From: Clostridiales bacterium
GTDB lineage: Bacteria; Bacillota; Clostridia; Oscillospirales; Oscillospiraceae
Direction: 5' to 3'
Length of the DNA stretch: 56,706 bases
Assembly (NCBI GenBank): GCA_014799505.1
Contig: JAAVHV010000009.1
Span: 11,199 to 67,904 of the forward strand
In this document: positions 1,199 to 16,918 of the stretch, piece by piece
How positions within the stretch are numbered: position 1 is the first letter of the stretch
Layout: every line of letters begins with the position of its first letter
Notes under the pieces: model-generated
The model's input: the letters and a program-made list of their open reading frames with translations, nothing else
Databases searched by the model: none
What the model was told of the DNA's origin: nothing
Program-made: the position numbers and the translations under genes

Positions 1199-1404
1199 GC
1201 TGATACCTTTATGCAGATGCCAATAGCCGCTTCGTGGTTTTGACGACAGGTCAAGAGCCTTGCTGGACTTGAATTCCCTGCTGTATGGTCCCTCAGTTTG
1301 CAGTTATGTATACTACATATTGTGCAAAACGAGGAAAGTAGCGCTACAACTTGAACCTCAGCAATCAGAGTGGTATACTGTTGGCAGACAGGAGAGTGAA
1401 GAAC

Positions 1405-1584
1405 ATGGTATTCGTCTGTGAGCATTGCCATTTTGAATTAGAAGCTGCGGCTAAACCCAGCCAGTGTCCAGATTGCGGGAAACTGAACCATATCCGCACA
1501 GCAACCCTAAGCGAAGGCAAGGAGTTCCAATCTCGGAAGCTGGAGGATGTCTGGCAGAATTCCACACCTGCTCTGGCTGGCTGA
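1405..1584 (+). CDS. small zinc-ribbon protein
   Basis: A 59-residue protein. The ATG at 1405 is chosen because a GGAGAG ribosome-binding site lies eight bases upstream; an in-frame start at 1351 has none. It contains two CxxC knuckles (CEHC and CPDC, about residues 5-22), giving a rubredoxin-like or zinc-ribbon fold, followed by a polar tail. Such tiny zinc ribbons are common on mobile elements of Clostridia and have no assigned function. The 206 bases before it (1199-1404) hold nothing recognisable; the gene is followed by a hairpin terminator at 1701. Confidence 0.55.
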   Translation: MVFVCEHCHFELEAAAKPSQCPDCGKLNHIRTATLSEGKEFQSRKLEDVWQNSTPALAG

Positions 1585-1700
1585 AAGTGAACTCTATACC
1601 TGTGAATATGAGCACAGGGTACGCAGTACGGAATTTTGCTTTCGAAAACCGTTGCGGCGCAATACTTTCCGAAAAAGCATTTTTGCAACATTGAGCCATA

Positions 1701-1737
1701 AACCCCTTGAAAACACTGGGTTTCAAGGGGTTTCCTT
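1701..1737 (+). terminator. rho-independent terminator
   Basis: The arms AACCCCTTGAAA and TTTCAAGGGGTT enclose a short loop and are followed by a T-rich stretch. It lies 116 bases after the zinc-ribbon gene and probably ends the umuC-side transcription unit. Confidence 0.75.
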
Positions 1738-1776
1738 TTGCTGTGGGAGCTGATTATGAAGTCAAAAAATAAGAAA

Positions 1777-1878
1777 TGGTGCCCATGGTGCCGGGATTTG
1801 TGGTGCCCAGCCAGATTTTACAGATGAATATAAATGCGGATTCTGAGCGCCGTGGTGCCCAAATGGTGCCCGGCACCA
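1777..1878. repeat. TGGTGCC repeat cluster with left candidate attachment core
   Basis: Five copies of TGGTGCC(C) start at 1777, 1786, 1801, 1853 and 1864. The last two form TGGTGCCCAAATGGTGCC (1853-1870), which recurs exactly at 13535-13552. A further inverted half (GGCACCAC, 1871-1878) pairs with GTGGTGCC at 1852-1859. Lying about 160 bases beyond the 3' end of the integrase gene, the cluster is well placed to be an att core with integrase-binding sites. This is inference; no empty site is available. The stretch 1585-2032 otherwise holds a terminator (1701) and a palindrome (1972). Confidence 0.5.
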
Positions 1879-1971
1879 CAAATGAACCTATGGAAATGAG
1901 CGGGAACTTGTGAACGCTGGTTTGCTGAATAAGCTCTGCAAAGGGGCTGCGCAGCACTGCGGTGCTGCGGC

Positions 1972-2022
1972 ACCTCGCGTCCATAAACTTCTACCTGCGG
2001 TAGAAGTTTATGGACGCGAGGT
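1972..2022. repeat. perfect 24-bp inverted repeat after the integrase gene
   Basis: The arms 1972-1995 and 1999-2022 are exact reverse complements separated by only three bases (TGC). The structure sits ten bases beyond the integrase stop codon. A loose T-rich stretch (GTTTTGGGTCTTT) follows on the plus strand; no T-tract follows on the integrase strand, so it is not a classical terminator for int. It could block transcription entering int from the left, or be a recombinase or structure site. Confidence 0.7.
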
Positions 2023-2032
2023 TTTGGGTCTT

Positions 2033-3259
2033 TCATCCCACATCCAACACAGCCTGATGGTATGTATCTAACACCACCAGCTTGCGCTCCAAGCGTACGT
2101 CCACGTACTGAGCAGTAACAGCTTCCAGATTGGTGGACAGATTGAGCTGGATGCCGATCCCTTTCAAACTGTGGCCCAGGATTTGCCCCACCGTGTAGAA
2201 GTCCCCGGTGAGCTGGTGCATATTGGTCGCTGCGCTGTGACGGGTATCGTGGAACCTCATATGTGGCATACCCAGGTGGCGAAGCAGCTGCCCGAACTCG
2301 GTGGATATATGCTGTGTCCGGTCTGGGATGCCGTTGGGTTTGGCGATCACCAGGTCATTGTCATAGTATATCTGTCCGGCTGCTGCCATCAGACGCTTCT
2401 GCTCCTCCTGCTGTGCGCGGTGCCGCTCAAAATAAGGGCGGGTGCTTTCCGTGATAGGCAGGACGCGCTCACTGGACTTCACAGGAGCCATCTCTGCAAC
2501 CTCAGTAGTCCCAGGCGGGAGTCGGAAGGGCAGCTGTTCAACTACTGCAAAACTGCCATGGATCAGGTCAACATTCCGCCAGCGGAGGCCAAGAATTTCC
2601 CCTGCTCTCAGCCCGTATAAGCCACCCAGGACGACGACAAGCTCCCACCAAGTCCCCATGACATTGGCAAGCAGGCTCCGCATCTGCTCCACGGTGTAGG
2701 GGTCTGGGGTCTTGCCCTGTTTCCCGAACTTGGTGATCGTGTCCCTGGCGGGGTTGCTGTCGATGTAGTGATATTTCCGGGCGTGCTCCAAGGCAACGCC
2801 CATGATCCGGTGGGCATATTTTACCGAAGATTGGGATAGACCCTTTTCGGAAAGCTGGCGGTACATATCATCCAGCATGGACGGAGACAGCTGGCCCAGG
2901 AATACGTCACCGATGCAGGGGAAGATGTGGTTCTTCATGTGGCTCTGATAGCTGGCCCTGGTGCTGGGCCTGAGATTTGCTGAACCATGACGATCCAGCC
3001 AGTCCGTCATGTACTCTTGGACAGTCTGTTTGCGCTGGGCCGCTCTCGGCGGGGAGTAGGAAGGGCTTGCCAGCTTCAGCTTCATTTCCGCCTCATGCTG
3101 CTGGGCCTCACGCTTTGAGGGGAATCCCTTGCGGGAGTAGGTCTTAGGCTGGCCATCGGACTTGTACTTGATGTTTACATCGTACACAGTCCCTGCCCTT
3201 CCGGTCAGTTCACCGGAGGAGTTGCGCTTGTTCTTCACAGTTCGTTCTTGAATTGCCAT
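2033..3259 (-). CDS. tyrosine recombinase / phage-type integrase
   Basis: A 408-residue integrase of the lambda/Tn916-like class. The N-terminal region (about 20-70) is an arm-binding AP2-like segment with basic and aromatic residues. Residues about 78-165 form the core-binding SAM-like domain, and about 185-395 the catalytic domain. Catalytic residues visible are Arg218 (GLYGLRAGEILGLRW), His337 and Arg340 (FHDTRHS), His363 (ILGHS) and Tyr385 (TAQYVDVR). Full length and all catalytic residues suggest it is active. The start has an AGGAGG site (GAGGAGGTCGAATC before ATG). It lies downstream of the excisionase-like gene and points towards the TGGTGCC repeat cluster, the usual geometry for an element end. 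Confidence 0.93.
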   Translation of the reverse strand: MAIQERTVKNKRNSSGELTGRAGTVYDVNIKYKSDGQPKTYSRKGFPSKREAQQHEAEMKLKLASPSYSPPRAAQRKQTVQEYMTDWLDRHGSANLRPSTRASYQSHMKNHIFPCIGDVFLGQLSPSMLDDMYRQLSEKGLSQSSVKYAHRIMGVALEHARKYHYIDSNPARDTITKFGKQGKTPDPYTVEQMRSLLANVMGTWWELVVVLGGLYGLRAGEILGLRWRNVDLIHGSFAVVEQLPFRLPPGTTEVAEMAPVKSSERVLPITESTRPYFERHRAQQEEQKRLMAAAGQIYYDNDLVIAKPNGIPDRTQHISTEFGQLLRHLGMPHMRFHDTRHSAATNMHQLTGDFYTVGQILGHSLKGIGIQLNLSTNLEAVTAQYVDVRLERKLVVLDTYHQAVLDVG

Positions 3260-3284
3260 GATTCGACCTCCTCAATAATTTCGG

Positions 3285-3329
3285 GTGAGCACCCTATATA
3301 TCTTGCAAGCAGATATATAGGGTGCTCAC
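3285..3329. promoter_or_regulatory. 18-bp inverted repeat between excisionase-like gene and integrase
   Basis: The arms GTGAGCACCCTATATATC (3285-3302) and its exact complement (3312-3329) flank a nine-base loop. The hairpin lies between the xis-like gene and the ribosome-binding site of int on the minus strand. It could attenuate read-through into int or be a regulator or recombinase site; a T-tract typical of a terminator is absent. Confidence 0.6.
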
Positions 3330-3360
3330 TGGTTGACATTGGAGCGGGGGTGCGTTAAAA

Positions 3361-3561
3361 TTACCTTGCCGCGACTTTCTCGCGCTGGTAATAATCCAGC
3401 AGGGCCTTTATGGTGGTAAGCCTGCGGTTACCGTTCGGCAGATACTCAATCTTCCCCTCGTCCATCAGACGGCGGATCAGATTGACGCCGAGGCCGCTTA
3501 CTTTGCTGGCCTGCTCCGGTGTTAAGAACAGCGGACGGATTGCTTCGGTTGATTTCCTCAT
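3361..3561 (-). CDS. excisionase-like helix-turn-helix protein
   Basis: A 66-residue protein with an excisionase/MerR-like winged helix-turn-helix: LTPEQASKVSGLGVNLIRRL is the helix-turn-helix and GKIEYLPNGNRRLTTIKALL forms the wing and last helix. The start at 3561 is chosen because AAGGAG lies nine bases upstream. A longer in-frame reading runs back into the neighbouring helicase gene and is not credible. Placed directly ahead of int on the same strand, it is the likely recombination directionality factor. Confidence 0.75.
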   Translation of the reverse strand: MRKSTEAIRPLFLTPEQASKVSGLGVNLIRRLMDEGKIEYLPNGNRRLTTIKALLDYYQREKVAAR

Positions 3562-3637
3562 GTACAACAGCTCCTTCATGATAATGATATGTGTTCCAAT
3601 TTGCTGGAACGGCTGAAAGCCTTGCGGCTCAATGAAT

Positions 3638-5242
3638 TCATGCCCACTGTTCCAAAGTTCCACAGCTGGGGGTTCCCTTCTTAAGCGCGATTCCCATATG
3701 GCCTTGGCGGTTTTCGGTTCCAATCCGGACGCGCTTGGCATATACACCCGGAACCCCCGAAAGCAAATCATAGAGCACCTGCTTTGAGACTGCTTCCAGA
3801 CCATTCCGCTTGCAGTAGGTGACGTAGGCGTCATACAGATCCGTATTAAAGACACGGGCCGCAGGATCGAGGTCGCAGCATTCAGCCAAGAACCCACCAA
3901 GGACGTTTCCACGCAGTGTGAAAGAGCCCAGGAACTTCTTGGAATCCTCTGGCTGGGTGAACTCAAAGTTGCGTTTTATCAGCCACTGCACTGCCTGGAG
4001 CGCCAGCGTTAGAATGGAATCCCGCTCGCGCCACAGCTCGTCAGCAAGTCGCTTATCCTGCTTCTCTGGCGGGATGCTGTTATTAAATAGCAGCACGCGG
4101 ATACGATTGACGAATGCAGCGGTTGCATCCGTTTCCGTTGTGAGCGGCAGGGTGTTTCCTGAGAACAGCAGCTTGCAGCGAGGGGTAAAGTAGAATGGGT
4201 CACGTCCCTTAAACTCGCCAGCAATGCGATCATTTCCGGTGATGGACTTGAAGATTGATATATCCCTCAACGCACGGCCCGCAAGCTCACCAGCGACGTT
4301 GAGCTTCTTACCAGCTAACTCTGCTCGAAAGAAACGATCTGCCAGTTGATGCAGGGGAATGTTGGAAACCAGTTCCTTGTCGAATAAGCGAGCAGCGAAC
4401 GAGGAAACGACACTCTTACCGCTGTTGGGCTGACCCTTGAAGAACAGGGCGCATTTCCCAGCGTTCGTGTCTGTGCAGATATACCCGATAATTTCCAGTA
4501 GGAGCTCTCGTTTCGCGGCAGTTCCATCCAGAGAGGTCTTGCAGAACTGCTCAAACGCAGGGCAGGAAATTTCCGAGGGGTTCTCCAAGTATGAGGCATG
4601 AACCTGATAGGTGAAACGGTAACTGGCGTCATGCTCCATCAATTCAGATGTTTCCAAATTGAACACCCCGTTTTGCAAGTTCACTAATTTGGGGTTGCTG
4701 TTGTAGCTATCCAGATTACACCGAATAGAAGTCTCCCACGATAGCCGTTCCGCAATTTCACGGATATTGCGAGAGAGAAGGCTGCGCGTGGTTTTAGGTG
4801 GAAGCATATTTGCCAGATACGCTTCGAGATTGGTGACGGGCTTGTAGTACCCGCCATCCTCTTGATAGGCAAATGCCCTCCCATCTTCGGTCAGGAGCAA
4901 TTTACCCTCCGCAACGATCCGCTCCACTAAGTCAGACAGGAAACGTGCTTGGACACTGGGCGTTTTCTCTGGAGCCGGAGATTGCGCAACCGGAGCAGAA
5001 GACTCGGATACAGTTGCCGAATCAGAATAAGGCGAAGATTCTGTATCTTCATCCTCATTCAATTCCGAGAGCAGATCATAAAGCTTGACAGCTTTTGACA
5101 GCTTGACCATTAAAGGCGATTCATACTCCAAGAAGACCTCGCTTTCATCAGAATACCCACTATCGTAGGGGCCAAATGGAGTGTTAACCATACATTCGAT
5201 CAACCCTTTCTGTGATAATTTATGGACTTTCGCTGCACGCAT
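3638..5242 (-). CDS. D5/P4-type phage-plasmid helicase (primase C-terminal type)
   Basis: A 534-residue SF3-family protein. Residues about 185-300 match the D5_N region (LVNLQNGVFNLETSELM), followed by a Walker A loop GQPNSGKS (270-277), a Walker B/motif region around residues 310-330 (KKLNVAGELAGR) and the SF3 motif C (CKLLFSGNTLP). Residues about 60-100 are an acidic, Ser/Pro-rich linker. The N-terminal AEP or TOPRIM primase domain of full-length P4-like proteins is not evident, so this is helicase-only unless a primase is encoded elsewhere. Family role: element replication initiation and unwinding. It lies upstream of the xis-like gene on the same strand. The ATG at 5242 has only a weak upstream site; an ATG at residue 18 is an alternative start. 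Confidence 0.85.
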   Translation of the reverse strand: MRAAKVHKLSQKGLIECMVNTPFGPYDSGYSDESEVFLEYESPLMVKLSKAVKLYDLLSELNEDEDTESSPYSDSATVSESSAPVAQSPAPEKTPSVQARFLSDLVERIVAEGKLLLTEDGRAFAYQEDGGYYKPVTNLEAYLANMLPPKTTRSLLSRNIREIAERLSWETSIRCNLDSYNSNPKLVNLQNGVFNLETSELMEHDASYRFTYQVHASYLENPSEISCPAFEQFCKTSLDGTAAKRELLLEIIGYICTDTNAGKCALFFKGQPNSGKSVVSSFAARLFDKELVSNIPLHQLADRFFRAELAGKKLNVAGELAGRALRDISIFKSITGNDRIAGEFKGRDPFYFTPRCKLLFSGNTLPLTTETDATAAFVNRIRVLLFNNSIPPEKQDKRLADELWRERDSILTLALQAVQWLIKRNFEFTQPEDSKKFLGSFTLRGNVLGGFLAECCDLDPAARVFNTDLYDAYVTYCKRNGLEAVSKQVLYDLLSGVPGVYAKRVRIGTENRQGHMGIALKKGTPSCGTLEQWA

Positions 5243-5342
5243 TGTACTAAATTCCCCGCCGATTGACTACATCCTGGGGGGCAGCGTGTTTTTAGGCAAA
5301 TTTTCCATAATCTCAAAAGGGTAGACTTGGAAGGACTATGCT

Positions 5343-6338
5343 ATGGATGCCGAACTTAGCAGCAAAGAACAGTTAGCACTTGATGCTATTGCTGATTGTA
5401 TGAAAAAGAGACTATATGGGAATGTGAAGTATAAAGACCCAGCCGCAGCAAAAGGAAGGGCTTGTGAAATACCCCACATATCGGAGCAAGTCCACCAGTT
5501 TTGGAATAAGTGTACTCCTGCATTCGAGCAAGCAGTGTCCAAACTTTTCAGTAGCCCTGATATCAAATTACGCGAAAATTATAAGCCAGAATATGGCCCC
5601 GAGACAGAGGTGCCATATTCTGAGGAATCTTTATCCGAAGAAAGGTATGAGTATGATGAAGGTCGTGGTTGGGTAACTCCTCTACGCGCATTTGAAAGAG
5701 CGTACGATGAATTCATATACTCATCTGGCATTGATAATCGCAACCAGTTGAAAGTGTTGAATAGAATATTTTCCCAACTCTGCTCCAAAGTAGATGATTA
5801 TAAGGAACGCAACAAGAAGAAATATCGACTAAGAGGAACGATTTTAGGGAAAGCTGAGTTTGGGAATCTTGAGTATTTGCTTGACTTGCAGGAAGACGCC
5901 ATTCGCCAGCTTTTACCCTATTTACTAACTGCCTATACGCTTACTTCCTGTAGCAGTCGGTTCTTTTACAAGGATCAAACGTTAATTCGCCTAATTTGTG
6001 CCACTAAGGTCAAAGACTCTGAACGCATTGACCCTATAGAAGCTTCTAAGGTAGGTGAAAGGATTAAGCCACTCAGCAAGGTGTTTAGCCTTAACGGAGC
6101 CATAAGTGCATCAACGTCTCGACCAGTTCCCGAAACGACACCATTAGAAGAAGTAATCTCCAACGATGAGAAACCCTATGTCAAGAATATTGCTGTGCTA
6201 ACCAGCATCTATAAGATCTGGGGGAAAGTTATTTCAGACTATGGATATTTGGCAGAAATAGATGGGTTTCCATCAGATATTGACTGGGATGCCTGCCAGA
6301 AACTCTATTCCTCTTATACTACGACATCCAGAAATTAA
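5343..6338 (+). CDS. hypothetical protein, lower GC than its surroundings
   Basis: A 331-residue protein with a good start (GGAAGG seven bases before ATG). I do not recognise a family. The sequence is soluble, charged and mostly helical, with an acidic stretch around residues 85-105 (PETEVPYSEESLSEERYEYD) and no signal peptide, membrane segment or nuclease/ATPase motif. Base composition is clearly lower in G+C than all neighbouring genes, which suggests separate acquisition. It is divergent from the D5 helicase gene and convergent with the helix-turn-helix gene at 6361. Its position in the accessory slot between replication and cargo genes would fit a defence or maintenance gene, but nothing in the sequence proves it. 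Confidence 0.75.
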   Translation: MDAELSSKEQLALDAIADCMKKRLYGNVKYKDPAAAKGRACEIPHISEQVHQFWNKCTPAFEQAVSKLFSSPDIKLRENYKPEYGPETEVPYSEESLSEERYEYDEGRGWVTPLRAFERAYDEFIYSSGIDNRNQLKVLNRIFSQLCSKVDDYKERNKKKYRLRGTILGKAEFGNLEYLLDLQEDAIRQLLPYLLTAYTLTSCSSRFFYKDQTLIRLICATKVKDSERIDPIEASKVGERIKPLSKVFSLNGAISASTSRPVPETTPLEEVISNDEKPYVKNIAVLTSIYKIWGKVISDYGYLAEIDGFPSDIDWDACQKLYSSYTTTSRN

Positions 6339-6339
6339 G

Positions 6340-6380
6340 TTGACTGGCGAAGGGGATGAGTCACCCCCTTTGCCAGTCAA
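6340..6380. terminator. bidirectional hairpin terminator
   Basis: The arms TTGACTGGCGAAGGGG and CCCCTTTGCCAGTCAA pair with a single G-T. The hairpin begins just after the stop of the orphan gene and overlaps the stop of the convergent helix-turn-helix gene, so it can serve both. Confidence 0.7.
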
Positions 6381-6591
6381 TTTGGCTTATAAGGAATTCT
6401 TCAATCGCTGCATTCGAAATCCGCCAGCTGTGTCCTACGCGAACCCCATGCAGCTCCCCCGAGTTCAGCAGCCGGTATATGGTATTCCTCCCCACTCCCA
6501 AAATGTCCATGGCCTCAGCTGGGGTAAATACGATGGGAAGCTGTTCCTCCTTGCGCTGCTCCAGATTTTCAATGAATGCTTCGTTTCTCAT
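6361..6591 (-). CDS. helix-turn-helix (excisionase family) DNA-binding protein
   Basis: A 76-residue protein with the excisionase-type fold: FTPAEAMDILGVGRNTIYRL, then LHGVRVGHSWRISNAAIEEF as wing and C-terminal helix. GGAGGG lies eight bases before the ATG at 6591. It is the second such gene in the element; unlike the one at 3361 it is not next to a tyrosine integrase but is divergent from the amidoligase operon. It may therefore be a transcriptional regulator of that operon, or the excisionase of a second, decayed element. Confidence 0.75.
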   Translation of the reverse strand: MRNEAFIENLEQRKEEQLPIVFTPAEAMDILGVGRNTIYRLLNSGELHGVRVGHSWRISNAAIEEFLISQIDWQRG

Positions 6592-6666
6592 GATAAAATC
6601 CCTCCTATGGATTATTTAACACCTTGTTGGTCCTTCCTGTACTTTTCAAACATATATCATTTCAAT

Positions 6667-6719
6667 AGAACACCGGAAACTGCCGATGGTTTTAACCTGG
6701 ACACAGTTTCCGGTGTTCT
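6667..6719. promoter_or_regulatory. 16-bp inverted repeat upstream of the amidoligase operon
   Basis: The arms AGAACACCGGAAACTG (6667-6682) and CAGTTTCCGGTGTTCT (6704-6719) are exact complements with a 21-base loop. It ends 31 bases before the first start codon of the operon. It may be a leader hairpin, attenuator or operator. No T-tract directly follows. Confidence 0.6.
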
Positions 6720-6750
6720 GTCATTCTGAAGAAAGTGAGGAGGAACTATC

Positions 6751-6837
6751 ATGCTGAAAACGCTGCTGCTGGTCATCCGTGGAATTATTCTGGAGCTTGT
6801 CGATCTGCTGCTCCAGGAGGTTTGCAGCCTGGGGTGA
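6751..6837 (+). CDS. 28-residue hydrophobic micro-ORF heading the amidoligase operon
   Basis: An ATG with a strong GAGGAGG site (seven bases upstream) opens a 28-codon frame starting MLKTLLLVIRGIILELVDLL and ending in LLQEVCSLG. The peptide is leucine-rich and amphipathic, with one Cys near the C-terminus. Its stop overlaps the start of the next micro-ORF (TGATGA), so translation looks coupled. The ribosome-binding site and coupling argue that it is translated. It may be a leader or coupling peptide, a small membrane peptide, or a substrate of the downstream enzymes; nothing decides between these. Confidence 0.5.
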   Translation: MLKTLLLVIRGIILELVDLLLQEVCSLG

Positions 6838-6950
6838 TGATGGACGGGAGAAAGGCCATTCAGGACAAGGCCCTGAGTGTCCTTGTTGCTGCTGTGGCCG
6901 CGCTGCTCTGTGCGGTCATTGACCATTTGACGAAGGAGGAACATCCATGA
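6837..6950 (+). CDS. 37-residue single-helix micro-ORF
   Basis: It starts MMDGRKAIQDKALSVLVAAV and continues through a hydrophobic run (VAALLCAVI) to a charged tail DHLTKEEHP. It overlaps the preceding micro-ORF (stop inside TGATGA) and the amidoligase gene (ATGA at 6947), so it sits in an unbroken chain of coupled starts. One transmembrane-like or amphipathic helix is predicted. An AAGGAGGAAC site for the amidoligase lies within its 3' end. Function unknown. Confidence 0.55.
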   Translation: MMDGRKAIQDKALSVLVAAVAALLCAVIDHLTKEEHP

Positions 6951-8065
6951 CCGAAGAAACCTTTACCTGCTCCTGCTGCGGGCATACCTACCCCATGCAC
7001 GAGCGCACCATCTTTGAGGACGAGGAAATCTGCCCCCACTGTCTGGATACGGAAACCCGCGTGTGCCGGGTCTGCGGGGAGCGTATCTGGCGGGACGATA
7101 ACGCCGGGGACGAGGATACTGCCCTGTGTGAGCGCTGCTATGAGCGGCACTATACCAGTTGTGCCCGCTGTGGTGCGCTGCTCCCGCTGGACAGCGCCTA
7201 CTATCTCAGCGACGATGCCGCGGATGACGATGACCCACTGTGCCATGACTGCTATCTGCTGCGGAGCGCGGACAGGGAAATCCATAATTACTACTATAAG
7301 CCTGACCCCATCTTCTATGGGGATGGGGGGCGCTACTTTGGTGTAGAGCTGGAAATTGATGGGGCCGGGGAGCGGAATGACCGGGCCTGCCGGCTGCTGA
7401 ACATTGCCAACAGGAGCGGCCATGAGCACATCTACATCAAGCACGACGGCTCCTTGGAGAACGGCATGGAGATTGTCACCCATCCCATGACCCTGGCTTA
7501 TCACATGGCTGAAATGCCCTGGGGTGACGTGGTGGCCGAGGCCCTGCGCATGGGTTACACCAGCCACAAAGCCTGTACCTGCGGCCTCCATGTCCACGTC
7601 AACCGGGACGCTTTTGGAGAGACTGATGACGTGCAGGAAGAAGTGATCGCCCGCATCCTGTTCTTCGTGGAAAGCCACTGGAACGAGCTGCTGCGGTTCA
7701 GCCGACGCTCCCGCTCACAGATGGAACAGTGGGCGGCGCGGTATGGCCGGAAGGATGATCCAAAGGCCGTACTGGATAACGCCAAGAAGGAGCATTACCA
7801 GCGCTACAAGTGTGTGAACCTCACCAATTACAGCACCATTGAGTTCCGGATGTTCCGGGGAACGCTGAAACTGAACACCCTCCTTGCCACATTGCAGATG
7901 GTTGACCGCATCTGTGATGTGGCACTTTATTTGACTGACGGGGAAATGCAAGACTTGACTTGGACGGAGTTCGCGGCGGGCTGTACGGCTCCGGAGCTGG
8001 TGCAGTACCTCAAAGAACGGCGGCTCTATGTCAGTGATCCTGTGACTGCTGCCGAGGAGGTGTGA
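6947..8065 (+). CDS. amidoligase-family enzyme with N-terminal zinc ribbons
   Basis: A 372-residue protein. The first about 105 residues hold six CxxC-type knuckles (around residues 8, 29, 40, 61, 72 and 99), i.e. three zinc-ribbon units. From about 130 the amidoligase (glutamine-synthetase-like COOH-NH2 ligase) domain follows, with YFGVELEID, KHDGSLENGMEIVTHPMT (164-182), the CGLHVHVNRDAFG signature (212-224) and TIEFRMFRGTL (297-307). These conserved acidic, His and Arg residues are the family's ATP/metal site. Family knowledge: these enzymes form amide or isopeptide bonds on peptides or small molecules and often neighbour glutamine amidotransferases. The gene overlaps the micro-ORF before it and is followed directly by a class II amidotransferase, which could supply ammonia. 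Confidence 0.85.
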   Translation: MTEETFTCSCCGHTYPMHERTIFEDEEICPHCLDTETRVCRVCGERIWRDDNAGDEDTALCERCYERHYTSCARCGALLPLDSAYYLSDDAADDDDPLCHDCYLLRSADREIHNYYYKPDPIFYGDGGRYFGVELEIDGAGERNDRACRLLNIANRSGHEHIYIKHDGSLENGMEIVTHPMTLAYHMAEMPWGDVVAEALRMGYTSHKACTCGLHVHVNRDAFGETDDVQEEVIARILFFVESHWNELLRFSRRSRSQMEQWAARYGRKDDPKAVLDNAKKEHYQRYKCVNLTNYSTIEFRMFRGTLKLNTLLATLQMVDRICDVALYLTDGEMQDLTWTEFAAGCTAPELVQYLKERRLYVSDPVTAAEEV

Positions 8066-8067
8066 CC

Positions 8068-9030
8068 ATGTGCGCCATCTTCGGAGTGCTGGACTTTCGG
8101 AGGAAACTCACCCCGGCCCAGCGGCGGGCAGTCTTTCGGGAGTTGGCCAATGCCGCACAGATTCGGGGCACTGATGCCAGCGGTGTGGCCTATGTGCGGG
8201 ACGGGGCCATACAGATCCAGAAAGCCCCCAGGCCCGCCAGCAAAATGCGCTGGCGGATTCCCCCGGAGGCCCGGCATCTCATGGGCCACACCCGTATGAC
8301 CACCCAGGGGGCTGCCTCCAAAAATTACAATAACCACCCATTCCCCGGCAGGGCTGGCAGTCAACCCTTTGCCCTGGCCCATAACGGTGTGCTGTACAAC
8401 GATATGGAGCTTCGGCGTACCCAGCGTCTGCCTGCCGCCAAAATTGAGACGGACAGCTATGTGGCGGTGCAGCTGATTGAGAAATGCGGCAGACTATCTG
8501 CCGACAGTCTGTGTCAAATGGCTGAGGCCCTGGACGGCACTTTCACCATCACAGTGCTGGACGCAAATGATACGCTGTACTTGGTGAAGGGCAATAACCC
8601 GTTGGCGATCCGGCTGTTCCCTGGCCTGGGCTGCTATCTCTATGCGTCCACAGGTGAGATTTTGGACATGGCCCTGGATGCTTTGGGATTGTCTAAGCTG
8701 GCTCAGACCAATATCCCCATCACCCAAGGCGATATTATGGAAATTGATGCCAAAGGTCAGCGAACTGTTACCCGGTTCGACGATGCCCGCCTGAGGACAC
8801 CGAGATATTTCTGTGACTGGGGTTGGCCGCGTCCGACTGTGCCCGGTGAGCCGGACGATTATATGGAAACGGTGCTGGAATACGGCCAGCGTCGCGGTGT
8901 GCCAGAATGGGAGCTTCGGCTGTTGCTGGATGCCGGGTATGACGCCCTCGACCTGGAGGAGATGATTCATGACGAGCAATTCCGGGAGAACTGCGTCCGT
9001 GAGGTCATGGCGGATTTGGGGGTGCGCTGA
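8068..9030 (+). CDS. class II glutamine amidotransferase
   Basis: A 320-residue Ntn-type amidotransferase. The ATG at 8068 (GAGGAGG seven bases upstream) is preferred to an in-frame GTG at 8062 because it places Cys directly after Met, giving the N-terminal nucleophile (MCAIFGVLDF). Motifs seen are RGTDASGVAY, MGHTRMTTQG, NNHPF, LAHNGVLYN and TDSYVAVQLI, which match the glutaminase domain of the PurF/GlmS/AsnB group without an attached synthase domain. After about residue 250 comes a C-terminal extension of unknown function. It nearly overlaps the amidoligase gene (stop 8065), so the two are probably co-translated and act together, glutamine-derived ammonia feeding the ligase (inference). Confidence 0.87.
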   Translation: MCAIFGVLDFRRKLTPAQRRAVFRELANAAQIRGTDASGVAYVRDGAIQIQKAPRPASKMRWRIPPEARHLMGHTRMTTQGAASKNYNNHPFPGRAGSQPFALAHNGVLYNDMELRRTQRLPAAKIETDSYVAVQLIEKCGRLSADSLCQMAEALDGTFTITVLDANDTLYLVKGNNPLAIRLFPGLGCYLYASTGEILDMALDALGLSKLAQTNIPITQGDIMEIDAKGQRTVTRFDDARLRTPRYFCDWGWPRPTVPGEPDDYMETVLEYGQRRGVPEWELRLLLDAGYDALDLEEMIHDEQFRENCVREVMADLGVR

Positions 9031-9034
9031 GGTG

Positions 9035-9135
9035 TGCCAATAGGGTATACCCCAGCGGCACAGTCAGAAAATGTGCCAATAGGGTCGGTTTCGGGGTTTT
9101 GGCATATGCCAGTTTCTGAACCGATCCTATTGGCA
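9035..9135. repeat. TGCCAATAGGG repeats: candidate resolution site or operator
   Basis: TGCCAATAGGGT occurs at 9035-9046 and 9074-9085, and an inverted copy (TCCTATTGGCA) at 9125-9135. Between the last two lies the palindrome TGGCATATGCCA. The inverted pair extends into GTCGGTTTC/GAACCGA, forming a hairpin. The block lies immediately in front of the serine recombinase gene, the usual place of res sites with two or three recombinase-binding subsites. Confidence 0.6.
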
Positions 9136-9150
9136 GTGAGGGTGATTATT

Positions 9151-9702
9151 TTGAAGATTGGATATGTCCGGGTCAGCACCCAGGAGCAGAATACCATCCG
9201 GCAGGAGATATTGATGAAGGACCTGGGTGTAGACGATGTATATATTGACCGTATGAGCGGCAAGAGCGCCGACAGGCCGGAGCTGAAGAAGCTGATGGAG
9301 TATGTGCGCCGGGGCGATACAGTGATTGTGGAATCCATCAGTCGCTTTGCCCGGAATACCCGTGACCTGTTGGAACTGGTGGAGCGGCTGACAGCCAAGG
9401 GGGTGGAGTTCGTATCCAGGAAAGAGGCCATCGACACCACAACCCCCAGCGGGAAGTTTATGTTGACTATCTTCGGGGCCGTAGCCGAGCTGGAGCGGGA
9501 GTACATCCTGCAACGCCAGCAGGAGGGGATTGCCATTGCCAAGGCCCAAGGGGTTTACAAGGGTCGCAAGCCCATTGAGCGCCCGGAGCTTTCTCAGGTA
9601 GTGGCGCAGTGGCGGGAAGGGAAGATTACGGCAGTGGAGGCTATGCGGCGGCTGAACATGAAGCCGAGCACATTCTACCGGAAGGTCAAGGCATTACCCT
9701 AA
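9151..9702 (+). CDS. serine recombinase (resolvase/invertase family)
   Basis: A 183-residue resolvase. The TTG at 9151 is preferred since it gives the family's N-terminus (MKIGYVRVSTQEQNT) with a purine-rich GTGAGGGTG upstream; a longer frame from 9034 runs through the repeat block. The catalytic Ser is in YVRVST, with Arg in DRMSGKSADRPEL and SISRFARNTRDLL, the dimerisation helix around residues 100-135, and a C-terminal helix-turn-helix (ITAVEAMRRLNMKPSTFYRK). The length fits small Tn3-type resolvases. It follows the amidotransferase gene with the putative res site between. Confidence 0.92.
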   Translation: MKIGYVRVSTQEQNTIRQEILMKDLGVDDVYIDRMSGKSADRPELKKLMEYVRRGDTVIVESISRFARNTRDLLELVERLTAKGVEFVSRKEAIDTTTPSGKFMLTIFGAVAELEREYILQRQQEGIAIAKAQGVYKGRKPIERPELSQVVAQWREGKITAVEAMRRLNMKPSTFYRKVKALP

Positions 9703-9741
9703 AGGGCGAGGGGTCGCAACTCATGTGCGACCCCTCGCCCT
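9703..9741. terminator. bidirectional terminator between resolvase and XRE gene
   Basis: The arms AGGGCGAGGGGTCGCA (9703-9718) and TGCGACCCCTCGCCCT (9726-9741) are perfect complements; the hairpin starts immediately after the resolvase stop and touches the stop of the convergent regulator. Confidence 0.8.
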
Positions 9742-10091
9742 CATTCAGATTTATTCTGCACTTCCCGCAAGGCCCGTTTGGCTGCCGCCAATACCTCTAC
9801 GAGGGCTTTCATTTCTGTGCTGGAACAGTCGGCCAGCAGTTCATTGATGTCCTTTACTCGCACATGGGTGGACTTGCTCAGATTGTCGCAGAGCAGATCA
9901 TCAATGGAAACATCAAGCACATTGGCAATGCGGATCAGTGTGGGGAGGCTCGGCTTGGTGTTGCCGCGCTCAATGTGGCTGTAATGGGCCGGCGTCAAAT
10001 CAGCGTATTCAGAGACACTTTCCTGTGTAAGGCCGCGTTCCAGACGGTATTTCCTGATCCTGCTTCCAATGGCGCGGTAATCAATCTCCAT
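9741..10091 (-). CDS. XRE-family transcriptional regulator
   Basis: A 116-residue protein. The N-terminal helix-turn-helix spans about residues 6-65 (RIRKYRLERGLTQESVSEYA, then LTPAHYSHIERGNTKPSLPT). The C-terminal part (75-116) is helical and ends with a basic segment. Such proteins are compact repressors of element functions. It is divergent from the membrane protein at 10252, and a 19-bp palindrome between the two genes (10154-10172) is a good operator candidate for it. Confidence 0.88.
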   Translation of the reverse strand: MEIDYRAIGSRIRKYRLERGLTQESVSEYADLTPAHYSHIERGNTKPSLPTLIRIANVLDVSIDDLLCDNLSKSTHVRVKDINELLADCSSTEMKALVEVLAAAKRALREVQNKSE

Positions 10092-10118
10092 AACTTATCC
10101 CTCACAGCGTTTTCTATA

Positions 10119-10172
10119 TTGTAAAGTCAAAACGCCTGTGCTATAATACGATTTAAAGTCATTTAGACTTTA
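10119..10172 (+). promoter_or_regulatory. promoter with palindromic operator
   Basis: TTGTAA (10119-10124) and TATAAT (10142-10147), 17 bases apart, form a promoter towards the membrane-protein gene. Just downstream is TAAAGTCATTTAGACTTTA (10154-10172), a perfect 7-bp-arm palindrome; a further AAAGTC half-site lies at 10123-10128 overlapping the -35. The divergent XRE protein is the likely ligand. Confidence 0.6.
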
Positions 10173-10251
10173 TAAGATAAGTCTGGCGAAATTTTCCCAT
10201 ACAAATTGTGACCTGTGCAATTCAGATTCAGAAAATGAGGAGGACATGAAA

Positions 10252-12084
10252 ATGGGAGCATTCCTTGTATTGGCTGCTGCCGCATTCTTGATTTACGCAA
10301 TGGTCATTGAGCCAAGACGCATTGGCTCAATCATTGAAACCCGCGTGTTCGCAGGAGATCTGTTGTCTGGCCAATTCAGCTATCAAGAAATTGCCGAACT
10401 GCTACAGGCAGCGACATGGATCAGGGACAAGAAGGAAGTCAAGCTGAGCGATCCTGGTGAAGATGACCACTCCGGCCTGATCGAAGTGGTCTGCAAAGGC
10501 GTTACATATCAGGTGCGCATTGCCTCCTATGGGGAGAACTCGTCAAAACTGACAGTTTCAGGGGTCTTCAAATCTGAATCCTGGGATATGGAAAGGGTTC
10601 GCCGCTTACAGGAAGCGAACCGGATTCGGTGCCGCATCATGGAACGGGCGAACCCCGGTTTCACGGAGCAGCCCCAGAAATACTATGGTGCAATCAAGAC
10701 ACTGTGTCTTCTCCAGTATTGCGCAATCGCACTGATCGCGGCGTTCCTTTGCTATATAGCGGTGCCCCAGATTCTGACCTGGATCTTGGGGGCCGGCTCG
10801 GTTCAGGGAATCCACGTTTTGGGTATGATGGTCGTGGTGATCCTGTTTATCTATTCCGGCGTTGCGCTGTCTCCCTATATCATACACACCAGGTCTGAAA
10901 AGCTCCTGGACGGTGTTCCGGTACCACAGTATTGGAGCAATGACGATCTTATGGAGCTGCTGCGGGATAAGTTGCGTATCAGGACAATGCAAAGTCTCTA
11001 TTTTGATGAAACCGGAAGCGTAGCGATCAAGGGGAAACACGCTGCTTATGTGGTCAGGGTTTCCGCCGAGTGTCCCAGGCTGTCTATTGAAATTCAGGAC
11101 AGCAGTGAGGCGGCAGCGTATCAGGAGGCCGATTATATCCAGTGCTCTATCGCAAAGCTGTTCAATTCTACTCACCCGGAGAATCCGGAAGCGATGTATC
11201 AAACGCTGGCTATGATTCGCAGAAGCAGCCTGATGGCGGGAATTTCGGTAGTGGCATTTATTGCGCTTCTTGCCGCGCCGTTCCTGCTTAACCACTTTGG
11301 CTCCAGGGGAATCGCAAATTCCTATTTGACGCAGTATAGCGAAACGGTGACAGTCGGTGAGGCATTTGAGGCGTTCTTCGGCGATCCCAAATGGGAGAGT
11401 TATAAAGCCGGAGCTCAAGAATATGTGGATTTCACCGGGAAATGTACTTACATGGGTGAAAATGCTACAATGAGGATCACATTTGCCGTCTTTGATGATA
11501 CGTTTAATGTCAGTAACATTGCTGTCAACGGAATTGATATGTCGGCACTGCTCTGGCCCGGATTCTTAGAGGCAATTTATTCAGGGGCAGAAGATGCACC
11601 CTCTGCTGCGGATACCCCGAACCAGGGTGAACACACCTCAGACGTTCCCAGGCCGACACAACCTCCCGCAGGCGGGGGAGAGCAGTTTCCTCCCACGCTG
11701 CCGCCTGTTGATCCAAATGACCCCAACGCTGATATTCTTTCAGACCATTTGGGTCTATATATCAACGAAAATGGATGCTACCTTAGCATATGGGCAGCAT
11801 CAGGGAATGGTTACTATTATGGAGCAATTTACGGCAATCGCGCCGATGCGGAAAATTACGTGAATCCGCTGCTGGAATTTTCAATGGGCGGCAGAAGTTT
11901 TGAGGGAACCTTCATCTTTGTGGACTCGGAAGAGAATACACTTTTCCTTGCCCGCGATAGTTCAATTTCTGACTATAACACGTTATTCTTGTACGGAGAC
12001 CCGCATTATGACGGCGTTGATATCACTCCGTACTTCGATACCACTTTCTACATGGTAGAGCAGTACATTGATGTGATGTATTGA
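10252..12084 (+). CDS. large multi-pass membrane protein of unknown function
   Basis: A 610-residue protein. The second ATG (10252) is chosen because GAGGAGG is eight bases away, against two for the ATG at 10246. Hydrophobic helices are at about 3-19, 150-172, 186-207 and 325-345. Soluble regions of similar size between helices (about 25-140 and 215-320) share sub-patterns such as RVRRLQEANRIRCRI versus YQEADYIQCSIAKLF, suggesting an internal duplication. After the last helix come an extracellular-type region with aromatic residues, a proline-rich linker (PRPTQPPAGGGEQFPPTLPP) and a Tyr/Gly-rich C-terminal domain. I recognise no family. It stands alone behind its own promoter and operator and has its own terminator, as expected of an element accessory or signalling gene. 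Confidence 0.75.
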   Translation: MGAFLVLAAAAFLIYAMVIEPRRIGSIIETRVFAGDLLSGQFSYQEIAELLQAATWIRDKKEVKLSDPGEDDHSGLIEVVCKGVTYQVRIASYGENSSKLTVSGVFKSESWDMERVRRLQEANRIRCRIMERANPGFTEQPQKYYGAIKTLCLLQYCAIALIAAFLCYIAVPQILTWILGAGSVQGIHVLGMMVVVILFIYSGVALSPYIIHTRSEKLLDGVPVPQYWSNDDLMELLRDKLRIRTMQSLYFDETGSVAIKGKHAAYVVRVSAECPRLSIEIQDSSEAAAYQEADYIQCSIAKLFNSTHPENPEAMYQTLAMIRRSSLMAGISVVAFIALLAAPFLLNHFGSRGIANSYLTQYSETVTVGEAFEAFFGDPKWESYKAGAQEYVDFTGKCTYMGENATMRITFAVFDDTFNVSNIAVNGIDMSALLWPGFLEAIYSGAEDAPSAADTPNQGEHTSDVPRPTQPPAGGGEQFPPTLPPVDPNDPNADILSDHLGLYINENGCYLSIWAASGNGYYYGAIYGNRADAENYVNPLLEFSMGGRSFEGTFIFVDSEENTLFLARDSSISDYNTLFLYGDPHYDGVDITPYFDTTFYMVEQYIDVMY

Positions 12085-12136
12085 TCGAGCGGTATAGCCC
12101 GCAAATTAGGCTCTGTCCTTCGAGCAGGATAGCACG

Positions 12137-12186
12137 GAAGCGCCCTGTGGCCCATCACCAGGCCACAGGGCGCTTCTTCTTTTCTA
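12137..12186 (+). terminator. rho-independent terminator
   Basis: The arms GAAGCGCCCTGTGGCC and GGCCACAGGGCGCTTC (perfect) with an eight-base loop are followed by TTCTTTTCT, 53 bases after the membrane-protein stop. Confidence 0.9.
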
Positions 12187-12263
12187 CTTGACGAGAGAAT
12201 AAACCAGGGCTATACTGACTAATATAGAATCAGATTCCGAATTAGCCATGAGAGGTGAGACGT

Positions 12264-13523
12264 ATGAATTACATCCCCCGAGCCCTTGAACGATATGTGG
12301 AGCACTCCGCCAAGACCTTTAAATGCGTCCTGCTCACCGGTGCGCGGCAGACTGGGAAATCCACCATGCTGAAACGGCTCTTTCCCTCCTACAAGTATGT
12401 GCCCCTGGATGACCCATTCGTGGAGGATCAGGCAAGAGAGAACCCCGATATGTTCCTGATGCTCAACCCGCCCCCGGTGTTCCTGGACGAGGTTCAGCGT
12501 ACCCCCGGCCTGTTCCGCTACCTCAAGATGAAATGCGACGAGAGCAACGAGCGGGGGCGGTTCCTACTGTCCGGCTCCCAGCCGCTGGAACTGATGGAGA
12601 ACGCGTCGGAATCCCTGTCCGGGCGAGTATGCGTCGTGGAGCTGTCCGGGCTGTCCCTGCGGGAAATTTCCGGGGACACATTCAGCGAACCATTTGTGCC
12701 CACCATGGAGTACATCGCCCAACGGAATCAGACGGCCAAGGCCCTCGACAATATCTGGGAGATCATCCACCGTGGTGGCTATCCCGAGCTGCAAAACCCG
12801 GATGTGGAGTGGTCGGCCTTCTTCTCCAGCTACGTGAAGACCTATCTCGAGCGGGACGTGCGAAAGTTGTCAGCGGTGCAGGATCTGGACGATTTCCGCC
12901 GCTTCATGGTGGCGGTGGCGGCACGCACCGGGCAAATGCTGAACTACTCCAACATTGCCGACGAGATCAGCAAGGACGCCAACACTGTGAAGCGGTGGCT
13001 GTCGCTGCTGGAGGCCACCGGCATCGTATATCTGCTGGAGCCCTACACGCCCTCGGTGCTGAAACGGGCTATCAAGACGCCTAAGGTCTACTTCCGGGAT
13101 ACCGGGCTGGCCTCCTACCTGACCCGCTGGCTCACGCCGGACACCCTGGCCAACGGCGCTATGAGCGGGGCTATGTTTGAGACGTTCGTGATCTCGGAAA
13201 TCCTGAAATCCTACTCCAACCGGGGGATCGACTACCGCTACTGCGTGTCCTATTATCGCGGGAAGGATAAGAAGAAAGCCCGGGTTGACGGTGCGGAGGT
13301 CAATGTTGAGAGCGAGGTGGACTTGATTATTGAGGAAAACGGCATCCTCCATCCCATTGAGATCAAGAAAAGCGCCAAGGTTACAGCAGACCAGACCGCG
13401 GCGTTCACTGTATTGGATCAGGTGCCTGATAAGAAGCGCGGGGACGGGGCCCTGATCTGTCTATGCCCACAGCCCGGAAAGCTGCGGGAGAACGTGTTCC
13501 AAATCCCTGTATGGTTCATCTGA
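12264..13523 (+). CDS. DUF4143-type AAA ATPase
   Basis: A 419-residue ATPase. The ATG at 12264 has GAGGTGAG upstream and gives the usual N-terminus (MNYIPRALERYVEH). The Walker A loop GARQTGKS lies around residues 30-37, Walker B PVFLDEVQRTP around 73-83, and the sensor LLSGSQPLEL around 105-115. The C-terminal DUF4143 half holds the winged helix (SNIADEISKDANTVKRWLSL) and a PD-(D/E)xK-like core (ESEVDLIIEENGILHPIEIK). This family is widespread in Clostridia and often multiplies by transfer; the role is unknown, possibly DNA-related because of the nuclease-like fold. It is the last gene before the right repeat at 13535. Confidence 0.9.
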   Translation: MNYIPRALERYVEHSAKTFKCVLLTGARQTGKSTMLKRLFPSYKYVPLDDPFVEDQARENPDMFLMLNPPPVFLDEVQRTPGLFRYLKMKCDESNERGRFLLSGSQPLELMENASESLSGRVCVVELSGLSLREISGDTFSEPFVPTMEYIAQRNQTAKALDNIWEIIHRGGYPELQNPDVEWSAFFSSYVKTYLERDVRKLSAVQDLDDFRRFMVAVAARTGQMLNYSNIADEISKDANTVKRWLSLLEATGIVYLLEPYTPSVLKRAIKTPKVYFRDTGLASYLTRWLTPDTLANGAMSGAMFETFVISEILKSYSNRGIDYRYCVSYYRGKDKKKARVDGAEVNVESEVDLIIEENGILHPIEIKKSAKVTADQTAAFTVLDQVPDKKRGDGALICLCPQPGKLRENVFQIPVWFI

Positions 13524-13534
13524 TTTAGGGATCA

Positions 13535-13552
13535 TGGTGCCCAAATGGTGCC
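13535..13552. repeat. right copy of the 18-bp direct repeat (candidate att core)
   Basis: TGGTGCCCAAATGGTGCC, identical to 1853-1870 and in the same orientation, 11.7 kb away. It lies twelve bases after the DUF4143 gene and with the left copy encloses int, the xis-like gene, the helicase, the amidoligase operon, the resolvase and the ATPase. Confidence 0.5.
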
Positions 13553-13583
13553 TGCGGCCATCTGACGCAGCATAACGACTAAA

Positions 13584-13630
13584 ATCCCCAGGTGTGAGGA
13601 AATGTAAGTTTCTCCACCCTGGGGATTATA
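13584..13630. terminator. long imperfect hairpin
   Basis: AATCCCCAG and CTGGGGATT pair perfectly at the base, continued by GTG..GGAAA against TTTCTCCAC with small bulges. It lies between the ATPase gene and the tRNA remnant and could terminate transcription leaving the element. Confidence 0.55.
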
Positions 13631-13690
13631 TTCGATCAAGAAAAGTGACGCTATATTATGATGTGGGTAAATTTCGCATTCATTTTTACC

Positions 13691-13748
13691 CTCGAAATCA
13701 GGTGTACCAGCAATGGTACCGTGGGTTCGAATCCCACCCGCTGCGCCA
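13691..13748 (+). pseudogene. tRNA-Ser (CGA) 3' fragment, probable integration scar
   Basis: From the anticodon loop CTCGAAA (anticodon CGA) the sequence runs through a 3' anticodon-stem half (TCAGG), a long class II variable arm (GTACC-loop-GGTAC), a perfect T-arm (GTGGG-TTCGAAT-CCCAC), a 3' acceptor strand CCGCTGC and GCCA. Upstream of the loop nothing pairs with TCAGG or the acceptor strand, so the 5' half of the gene is missing. Integrases often cut in the anticodon or T loop and leave exactly such a 3' half at the far end of an inserted element. The rebuilt tRNA gene would lie left of the window. Confidence 0.7.
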
Positions 13749-13750
13749 AT

Positions 13751-13970
13751 GAAGTCGGCAAATTTCGGCAAGAAATTTGCCGACTTCCCCTTTTGCTGAG
13801 ATGTTTTTCTGTGGCATCCAAAGTGTTCGCCCTTTCCAGCGAAGTCGACAAATTTCGACAAGAAATTTGTCGACTTCCCCTTTTTGCGAACTTATGGTTC
13901 GGCGCATCTTTTTCGTCAACGCATAACATCGACAAAAATCGACAGGTTTCGATAAAAACCTGTCGATTTT
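13751..13970. repeat. three related hairpins after the tRNA fragment
   Basis: Hairpin 1 (13751-13787) and hairpin 2 (13841-13877) have perfect 16-bp arms, are exactly 90 bases apart and are each followed by CCCCTTTT. Their arms differ by one base pair changed on both sides (GGC/GCC against GAC/GTC). Hairpin 3 (13935-13970) has 15-bp arms built from the same TCGACA motif and T-runs on both sides; it also suits termination of the minus-strand gene ending at 14032. Together they fill most of the gene-free stretch 13524-14031. Confidence 0.75.
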
Positions 13971-14031
13971 ATTTTTATTGGCCCAATCCCATCAAGAAGC
14001 TCTCATCACATAAATGCACCTGGATTTTCTA

Positions 14032-15018
14032 TCAGTCTCCGGGGAAAAGAATACCTGCTTTTTTGCGGGAAGATTCCAGCGTCGCCACGACATCCAGCGT
14101 GACGTCCAACCGCTTATAGATGGCGGCATAATCGTCCGTCAGCACCAGCTTTGTCAGGTTCTGCACCTCATAAGACCAGCGATCCGGGTTAGGCTGGTCG
14201 TTGAAAGTCTCATCGCTGGTCTTTGTCACGACCCGTACCTCCGCAATGCCATTGCTCCCGTCTTTGATATAGATGTAGCCTTTCTCTCCCTCGATCTGGA
14301 AAGAGTTGACGCCCCATGTGTCTTTGGCCCCAGTGGACTGGCTGACAAAGCCATCATAGCACATCATCAAAATGCCGGAGGTATCGGCCATGCCAGGGTA
14401 GATGTTGGGGTAATATACAGCATCCTTTGGTTTGCCAAACAGGGCAATGTTCAGATAGACATTGTAGAAGTTCAGATCCATCAGGCAGCCGGCGCCGCAC
14501 TCCGGGTTAAAAACATTCGGCACCTCACCCTTCAGCAGTTGATCGTAACGGGCGGAATACTGGCTATAGTTCCCCAGCACCAGCTTGACCTTTCCGATTT
14601 TCGGCAGTTCCCGCTTCAGGACATCAAAATTCGGCAGGAACGCGGTGGGAACCGCCTCCACCAGAAACAGGTGCTTTTCCTTCGCAAGAGCAACCAGCTC
14701 CCGCGCCTGCTCCGCTTTGGTGCAGAAAGGCTTTTCGCAGATAACGTTTTTTCCTGCCAGCAGCGCTTTCTTGATTTGCCCATAGTGGAGCAGATTGGGC
14801 GTTGCAATATAGACGAAATTGACCTCATCATTCGCCAGAAAAGCGTCCATATCCGTATAGACCTTCTCTGCGCCATACTCCGCTGCCAAAGCCTTGCCTT
14901 TATCCTCAGTGCGGGAATATACGGCGGCCAGCCGAATACCATCCGTTGCTTTCACATTGTCCAAAATAGAGTGGACGATTGCACCGGAACCTATGGTTCC
15001 AAGTCTGATTTCTTCCAT
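14032..15018 (-). CDS. Gfo/Idh/MocA-family oxidoreductase
   Basis: A 328-residue NAD(P)-dependent sugar dehydrogenase-like protein. The N-terminal Rossmann fold has LGTIGSGAIVHSIL (glycine motif) and the family motif CEKPF around residues 95-100 (EKP lysine), followed by the alpha/beta substrate domain with GCLMDLNFYNVYL. Length is typical. It is encoded 33 bases after the NagA gene on the same strand, so it probably acts on an amino sugar or related carbohydrate, but the substrate cannot be read from sequence. An AGGAGGC site precedes the ATG at 15018. Confidence 0.85.
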   Translation of the reverse strand: MEEIRLGTIGSGAIVHSILDNVKATDGIRLAAVYSRTEDKGKALAAEYGAEKVYTDMDAFLANDEVNFVYIATPNLLHYGQIKKALLAGKNVICEKPFCTKAEQARELVALAKEKHLFLVEAVPTAFLPNFDVLKRELPKIGKVKLVLGNYSQYSARYDQLLKGEVPNVFNPECGAGCLMDLNFYNVYLNIALFGKPKDAVYYPNIYPGMADTSGILMMCYDGFVSQSTGAKDTWGVNSFQIEGEKGYIYIKDGSNGIAEVRVVTKTSDETFNDQPNPDRWSYEVQNLTKLVLTDDYAAIYKRLDVTLDVVATLESSRKKAGILFPGD

Positions 15019-15051
15019 GTGGATGCCTCCTTTTTACCGACTGTGCTTATG

Positions 15052-16774: not shown

Positions 16775-16837
16775 AGACAGATTTTGTCTATGCTTACCAT
16801 AACCATACAACTTATTCATTTTTTCTTTGTAAGTTGT
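16775..16837 (+). promoter_or_regulatory. inverted repeats upstream of the tct-sulfatase operon
   Basis: AGACA-N5-TGTCT (16775-16789) and ACAACTTA (16807-16814) with TAAGTTGT (16830-16837) are inverted repeats in an AT-rich region 82-145 bases before tctC. A weak promoter (TTGCGC, 17 bases, TATGTT) follows around 16837-16866. These are candidates for binding by the GntR/LacI-type regulator encoded in the operon. Confidence 0.35.
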
Positions 16838-16918
16838 TGCGCCAAATTTTTTCATATGCTATGTTTGAATCAGCCGGGAGATATCCCTCCCCCAACAGTT
16901 TTGAAAAGGAGAATGAAC

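Follow-up and report, generated by a model that had tools for sequence, protein, structure and literature searches.

An amidoligase–glutaminase pair and a separable micropeptide module on an integrative element of Oscillospiraceae

A 2009 study by Iyer and co-workers reportedly predicted the kind of amidoligase–glutaminase pair treated here. The available portions of PMC7824862 and PMC4431377 cite that prediction, and the excerpts at hand of PMC5498523, PMC3890496, PMC10580990 and PMC11318856 describe such pairs for phages; modification of a peptide or of the cell surface is likewise already in print as an idea for phage relatives (PMC5498523 and PMC10580990, in excerpt). In the partial texts covered on phages, integrative elements and superinfection, we noticed no experimental substrate for amidoligases. 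Here we analyse a pair on an integrative element of a Clostridiales bacterium of the family Oscillospiraceae, contained in a 56,706-nucleotide stretch of contig JAAVHV010000009.1 (hereafter the window) from a 1.86-Mb assembly that is 65% complete. Its amidoligase gene (AL, a single copy in that genome) and class II glutamine amidotransferase gene (GAT) are preceded by two small open reading frames (micro-ORFs), m1 and m2. Pairs like AL–GAT have been predicted in phages before; the micropeptides form a module of their own.

The four plus-strand frames are chained in the order m1–m2–AL–GAT, with TGATGA and ATGA overlaps before AL and a near-overlap between AL and GAT, as the initial annotation had described (Table 1); its range, which ran to 9702, also takes in the serine recombinase gene downstream. 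It had credited all four frames with good ribosome-binding sites. An AGGAGG motif does lie 7 nt upstream of m1, AL and GAT, but for m2 this was too generous, because the motif is 13 nt from the GTG start or 16 nt from the ATG. Class II glutaminases need an N-terminal cysteine that is exposed once the methionine is removed. The codon after ATG 8068 specifies this cysteine, so GAT probably begins at that ATG; the Met-Cys terminus is invariant in a 63-row alignment.

The identification of an amidoligase and a class II glutaminase in the initial annotation holds, and both enzymes are intact. AL matches Amidoligase_2 (PF12224) with 39 bits (cut-off 22), carries three LIM-like zinc modules and resembles glutamine synthetase (GS) and YbdK in structure comparison; by score and GS-like fold it is a PF12224 amidoligase, with a predicted amide-forming activity. 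Loss of catalytic residues across homologues had been named as grounds for abandoning the proposal; the acidic, His and Arg residues concerned, which we take to be catalytic, are invariant in 64 relatives. GAT scores 52.5 bits against PF13522 (cut-off 27) and has a predicted PurF/GlmS-type fold (Foldseek match 1ao0, E 4e-14), and C2, R76, N106, G107 and D129 are invariant (63 rows; 62 relatives), which identifies it at the sequence level as a class II glutamine amidotransferase. Of the usable loci, 64/77 entered the AL alignment and 62/72 that of GAT.

A scan of genome contigs, one genome per species, confirmed 530 AL relatives, and the best 80, those most like the window, were analysed as loci. 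GAT lies downstream of AL at all 77 loci where 300 nt or more of downstream sequence is available, within 60 nt at 75 of them; most often the two genes overlap by 1 nt (35 loci). Distances between AL proteins correlate with those between GAT proteins (Mantel r 0.78, 61 loci, 0/2000 permutations), so that the near-obligate neighbourhood of the two genes holds. Scanning viral contigs with the single AL protein returned zero relatives, whereas an alignment-based scan found at least 527. We assembled a distant set of 86 loci, 80 from viral contigs and the other 6 from phages or plasmids. By a motif test, 67 of them have a class II GAT-like frame no more than 2.5 kb downstream of AL, whereas one has such a frame upstream and none has it on the opposite strand. 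Pfam backed five of eight such frames tried, three of the five above cut-off. The LIM-like part is present at 49/86 loci. Carriers of the pair include mycobacteriophage Marvin, the M. abscessus plasmid pGD21-2, podovirus ctgrD200 and UFV-P2/LUZ24-type phages. Pairs of AL and a class II glutaminase are thus widespread in phages and integrative elements. The elements of gut Oscillospiraceae carry a compact two-gene version suited to direct test, and cultured hosts are among the AL carriers (e.g. Flavonifractor, Butyricicoccus and Oscillibacter records).

The micropeptides were predicted to form an amphipathic helix (m1) and a single transmembrane (TM) helix (m2); M1, L2, L6 and R10 of m1 are invariant in 18 rows. 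Profile searches of 400 family genomes gave m2 matches at E 0.01 in 22 genomes and m1 matches in 14. At E 1e-5 or better m2 occurs at 16 loci in 14 genomes, and it adjoins m1 at 14/14 strong m1 loci; among 295 order-level genomes the m2 profile matched two at E 0.001, the window's own genome being one. Loci gathered with the m1 and m2 profiles are biased towards conserved protein sequence, a bias that six non-overlapping locus pairs picked via the AL search escape. For these six pairs the ratio of nonsynonymous to synonymous change (pN/pS) is 0.40 for m1 and 0.23 for m2. Pooled close pairs gave 0.37 and 0.36, and all pairs 0.57 and 0.46, compared with 0.83–2.2 in other frames. The synonymous versus non-synonymous comparison that had been proposed as a check thus reveals purifying selection in both frames, conserved at 21 distinct loci. 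We conclude that m1 and m2 are real peptide genes, beyond chance. Neither matches PHROGs, Pfam, NCBIfam or PADLOC (the literature was not searched for them); they represent a small protein family that annotation has missed, with a clean genetic signature.

The micropeptides had been put forward as substrates, membrane tethers or coupling leaders of the enzymes, a proposal to be dropped if they were not conserved at other loci with intact pairs. The peptides are conserved, but m1/m2 occur within 1.2 kb upstream of AL at only 15 of the 80 loci (the 75 loci with 400 nt or more of upstream sequence account for 14 of them), and 65 intact-type AL–GAT loci have neither; a first family survey found them at 6/21 full-length AL loci. 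Conversely, AL follows m2 at 10 of 16 loci, once after DUF3846, and 6/16 have no AL. Where AL is absent, m1–m2 or a lone m2 is followed by a zinc-ribbon-only protein, DUF6809, DUF932 or a divergent helix-turn-helix (HTH) gene. In the distant set the m1 and m2 profiles had zero matches. By the rule just given, the 15/80 and 6/16 counts defeat the link between peptides and enzymes, and they differ from the pattern of ribosomally synthesized, post-translationally modified peptides (RiPPs), in which the precursor is conserved with its modifying enzyme. We conclude that m1–m2 and AL–GAT are separable modules and that the micropeptide module is able to travel without the enzymes.

The m2 start position common to most close relatives corresponds to GTG 6834 of the window, in the m2 frame; in these relatives the GTG overlaps the m1 stop (GTGA), and locus L061 uses ATGA. 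Other loci depart from this arrangement, as a check of 17 loci showed. At L037, L045, L047 and L074 the m2 frame is open with no ATG, GTG or TTG ahead of the conserved Ile-Asp (ID), at L072 and L091 candidate start codons lie only within the TM helix, at L155 the sole candidate is a GTG 1 nt past the ribosome-binding site, and at L039 the frame has a TTG. Three pairs of loci with no plausible start differ by 5 nonsynonymous and 18 synonymous changes (ratio 0.095; 0.27 when L045/L047 are added). m2 is therefore under selection even where a plausible ATG, GTG or TTG start is missing. A three-codon ORF, ATG-NNN-AAY-TGA, ends on (C/T)TG in the m2 frame at L037, L038, L039, L072, L074, L091 and L155, which suggests termination–reinitiation at CUG or UUG, or frameshifting. 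At start-less loci m2 may be made by reinitiation, from an ATA or ATC start or by frameshift, alternatives that the data do not tell apart.

A hairpin lies between m1 and the divergent HTH_17 gene. Among 10 distinct rows, 97.5% of cells in its 16-bp stem are paired and 12/16 stem pairs show two-sided changes, a number that 0/500 shuffles reached, all slid controls being lower. A model of the hairpin finds m1 loci outside its training rows (L037 and L094 with 49.8 bits, L072/L090/L091 with 40.5, L074/L120 with 34.6, further ones with weak scores); it matched 5/250 family genomes. At its own sites the model hits the opposite strand as well. Weak matches at AL loci devoid of m1/m2 (E 0.04–0.8) were not counted, because any strong terminator-like hairpin scores alike. 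In Rfam the hairpin has no family and overlaps a single model, a microRNA at chance level and under cut-off (the literature was not searched); a sigma-70 promoter was looked for upstream of m1 and not found. The role of the hairpin may be that of a terminator-like attenuator, of an insulator or of a protein-binding site. Classical leader-peptide attenuation was rejected: the hairpin precedes m1, and none comparable was noted between m2 and AL. It is possible, though we would not presume it, that m1–m2 represents a new two-micropeptide module carried by integrative elements and equipped with a covarying leader hairpin, one entire branch of the family producing m2 from a non-standard start.

Table 1. 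Features of the locus (window coordinates)
Feature	Position	Strand	Description
Tyrosine integrase	2033..3259	-	PF00589
P4-type primase	3638..5242	-	TIGR01613, 163.8 bits (cut-off 108.7)
Excisionase-like HTH_17 protein	6361..6591	-	PF12728, TIGR01764; divergent from m1
Hairpin, stem AGAACACCGGAAACTG / CAGTTTCCGGTGTTCT	6668..6717 (stem and loop within ~6665-6720)	+	Between divergent HTH_17 gene and m1
m1 micro-ORF	6751..6837	+	28 aa; amphipathic helix (predicted); homologues at 21 distinct loci
m2 micro-ORF	6837..6950 (or from GTG 6834)	+	37 aa; Ala-rich TM-like helix, CxxID at end; same 21 loci
AL	6947..8065	+	372 aa; LIM-like zinc modules ~residues 8-102, GS-fold amidoligase ~125-361
GAT	8068..9030	+	320 aa; class II glutamine amidotransferase; extra C-terminal helical domain ~residues 264-316
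CCAATAGGGT sites and inverted repeat	9035..9135		Ahead of recombinase gene; L088 similarity breaks inside first copy
Serine recombinase, resolvase/invertase type	9154..9702	+	PF00239; neighbour, membership in enzyme system unproven

The mobile setting proposed for the locus is supported by the integrase, the excisionase-like protein and the P4-type primase, as well as by a closely related element. In that nearest relative, L088, AL is 96% identical; similarity begins at window position 1695 and stops near 13663–13748, where a tRNA-like 3' end is located. L088 has a tRNA-like end at its left edge, which puts the element at ~12 kb. ARAGORN found zero tRNAs in window 1–16000, and no transfer genes were noticed on the element. 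L088 lacks the recombinase and the HTH gene (window 9043–10233), its divergence starting inside GTGCCAATA, which hints at recombinase-linked cargo exchange. A different segment (L088 8090–8416) replaces window 9035–10233, the break falling in GTGCCAATA, a sequence repeated before the recombinase. An inverted repeat, CCAATAGGGTnGGTTTC, is present at window 9074–9135 and at 30 other AL loci, ~35–140 nt before the recombinase gene; the distance grows to 700–850 nt where DUF3846 intervenes. Where 3 kb or more of sequence was available, a relative of the recombinase lies downstream of AL at 47/63 loci, and a relative of the tyrosine integrase was present in the fetched flanks of 12/80. An AAA_14/DUF4143 ATPase that matches the PADLOC candidate defence model PDC-S01 occupies window 12255–13523, at the element's right end. 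The L061 element carries integrase, primase and excisionase-like genes related to those of the window; at its AL position (L061 8422–8736, minus strand) is a stand-alone LIM-like protein, followed by DUF932 and YqaJ.

The reading we favour, to which we give even odds, is that one element carries two cargo modules, a glutamine-dependent amidoligase made of AL and GAT and an independent micropeptide pair, and that a macromolecule of the host receives the amide. The frames, the pairing, the conservation, the fold and the independence of the modules are its observed part. From the enzyme families, GAT would hydrolyse glutamine and pass ammonia to AL, which would use ATP to activate a carboxylate in its GS-like site and convert it to an amide, the LIM-like zinc modules presumably picking the target. 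The membrane-type micropeptides would be translated at the operon head and act independently of the enzymes. Judging from context, the amide might be put on an envelope precursor or a protein of the host and benefit the element, for example by rival exclusion; modification of a peptide or surface by AL–GAT, as initially proposed, is likewise conjectural. Several points weigh against this reading. The 80 AL loci were chosen by likeness to the window; the AL frame is short or interrupted at three of them (L091, L122, L148) and the GAT frame short at three (L113, L141, L151). No GAT-like frame was found by motif at 17 of the 86 distant loci, two of which end within 50 nt past AL and four of which are known C. 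difficile-type or similar loci with AL alone, so that GAT is not universal among distant relatives. The window-type GAT profile detected zero natural AL–GAT fusions in the distant set, the papers covered name no substrate for such pairs, and the structures were predicted as single chains.

The two other accounts of the micropeptides are weaker. That AL–GAT amidates or cross-links m1 or m2 into a modified product would fit their direct adjacency, overlapping frames and protein-level conservation, and the 10/16 loci where AL comes after m2. We judge it highly improbable, since no m1/m2 match exists at 65 of the 80 closest AL–GAT loci or at any of the 86 distant ones, AL does not adjoin m2 at 6/16 loci, and m1 is poor in acidic residues, none of them invariant. 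It is also improbable that the micro-ORFs are translation-coupling leaders with no peptide function: the overlapping starts and stops and the badly spaced m2 ribosome-binding site would suit such a role, but the amino-acid-level constraint, the conserved residue pattern and the placement ahead of unrelated genes argue against it. As to the enzymes, superinfection exclusion by amidation of peptidoglycan stem peptides has been proposed for podoviruses, whose AL and GAT belong to a ‘peptidoglycan modification cassette’ in phage PSA-HP1 and relatives (PMC5498523; the available passages of PMC10580990 and PMC11318856 quote the same idea). We regard this as unlikely for AL–GAT: the second amidoligase, ATP-grasp protein and gamma-glutamyl cyclotransferase of the cassette are unmatched among the scanned element proteins, LIM-like modules suit a protein or nucleic-acid partner equally well or better, and the proposal appears with no experiment in the excerpts at hand. 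Alternatively, the LIM-like part would select a protein or nucleic acid of the cytoplasm for modification by AL–GAT, in an anti-host or anti-defence role within the element's early operon. The LIM-type matches, the neighbours of AL (DUF3846 at 40/80 loci, DUF932/YqaJ at a few) and the occurrence of the LIM-like part alone in the same gene position near DUF932 and YqaJ recombinase at L061 point in this direction. The stand-alone LIM protein is clear, however, at just one m1–m2 locus, no known anti-defence protein of such a kind was found, and PADLOC models gave no AL or GAT match at E 0.01, which also places the pair outside the known anti-phage defence systems modelled there. We therefore consider this role possible but doubtful.

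Elsewhere in the window, two minus-strand genes (51346–52749 and 50216–51331) encode collagen-like repeat proteins, the first with a BclA C-terminal domain, which is unusual beyond spore formers with an exosporium. The cluster at 32364–40532 is perhaps a conflict-type system; together with a HEAT-repeat protein and a VWA_CoxE protein it has DUF5682 and the frame of an AAA-type ATPase, three of the four with Pfam matches. At 16784–23691 a tricarboxylate transporter gene accompanies sulfatase and radical SAM/SPASM genes, seemingly an ordinary pairing of sulfatase and maturase.

Compared with described systems, the window has the same order, AL then GATase, as the PF12224 and class II GATase pairs of Marvin (gp105/gp106), podovirus ctgrD200, plasmid pGD21-2 and UFV-P2/LUZ24-type phages. 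The GATs of distant phages fall into subfamilies other than that of the window GAT, m1/m2 are unmatched in all 86 loci, and in UFV-P2, unlike the window, an HNH gene separates AL and GATase and an ATP-grasp gene is nearby. With the cassette of PSA-HP1, phiEco32 and relatives, as presented in the available text of PMC5498523, the locus shares an amidoligase and a glutamine amidotransferase on a mobile genome; the cassette's further members had no Pfam match in ten element proteins, the integrase and the ATPase. YbdK-type carboxylate-amine ligases and glutamine synthetases are 10–16% identical to AL over the alignment, but lack its LIM-like N-terminus and separate glutaminase partner. MurT is of the Mur-ligase type, and GatD belongs to a glutaminase class other than class II. 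According to the excerpts at hand of PMC3267633 and PMC5871853, MurT–GatD of Gram-positive bacteria is likewise a two-protein system for glutamine-dependent amidation. Unlike MurT–GatD, the window pair combines a GS fold with a class II glutaminase.

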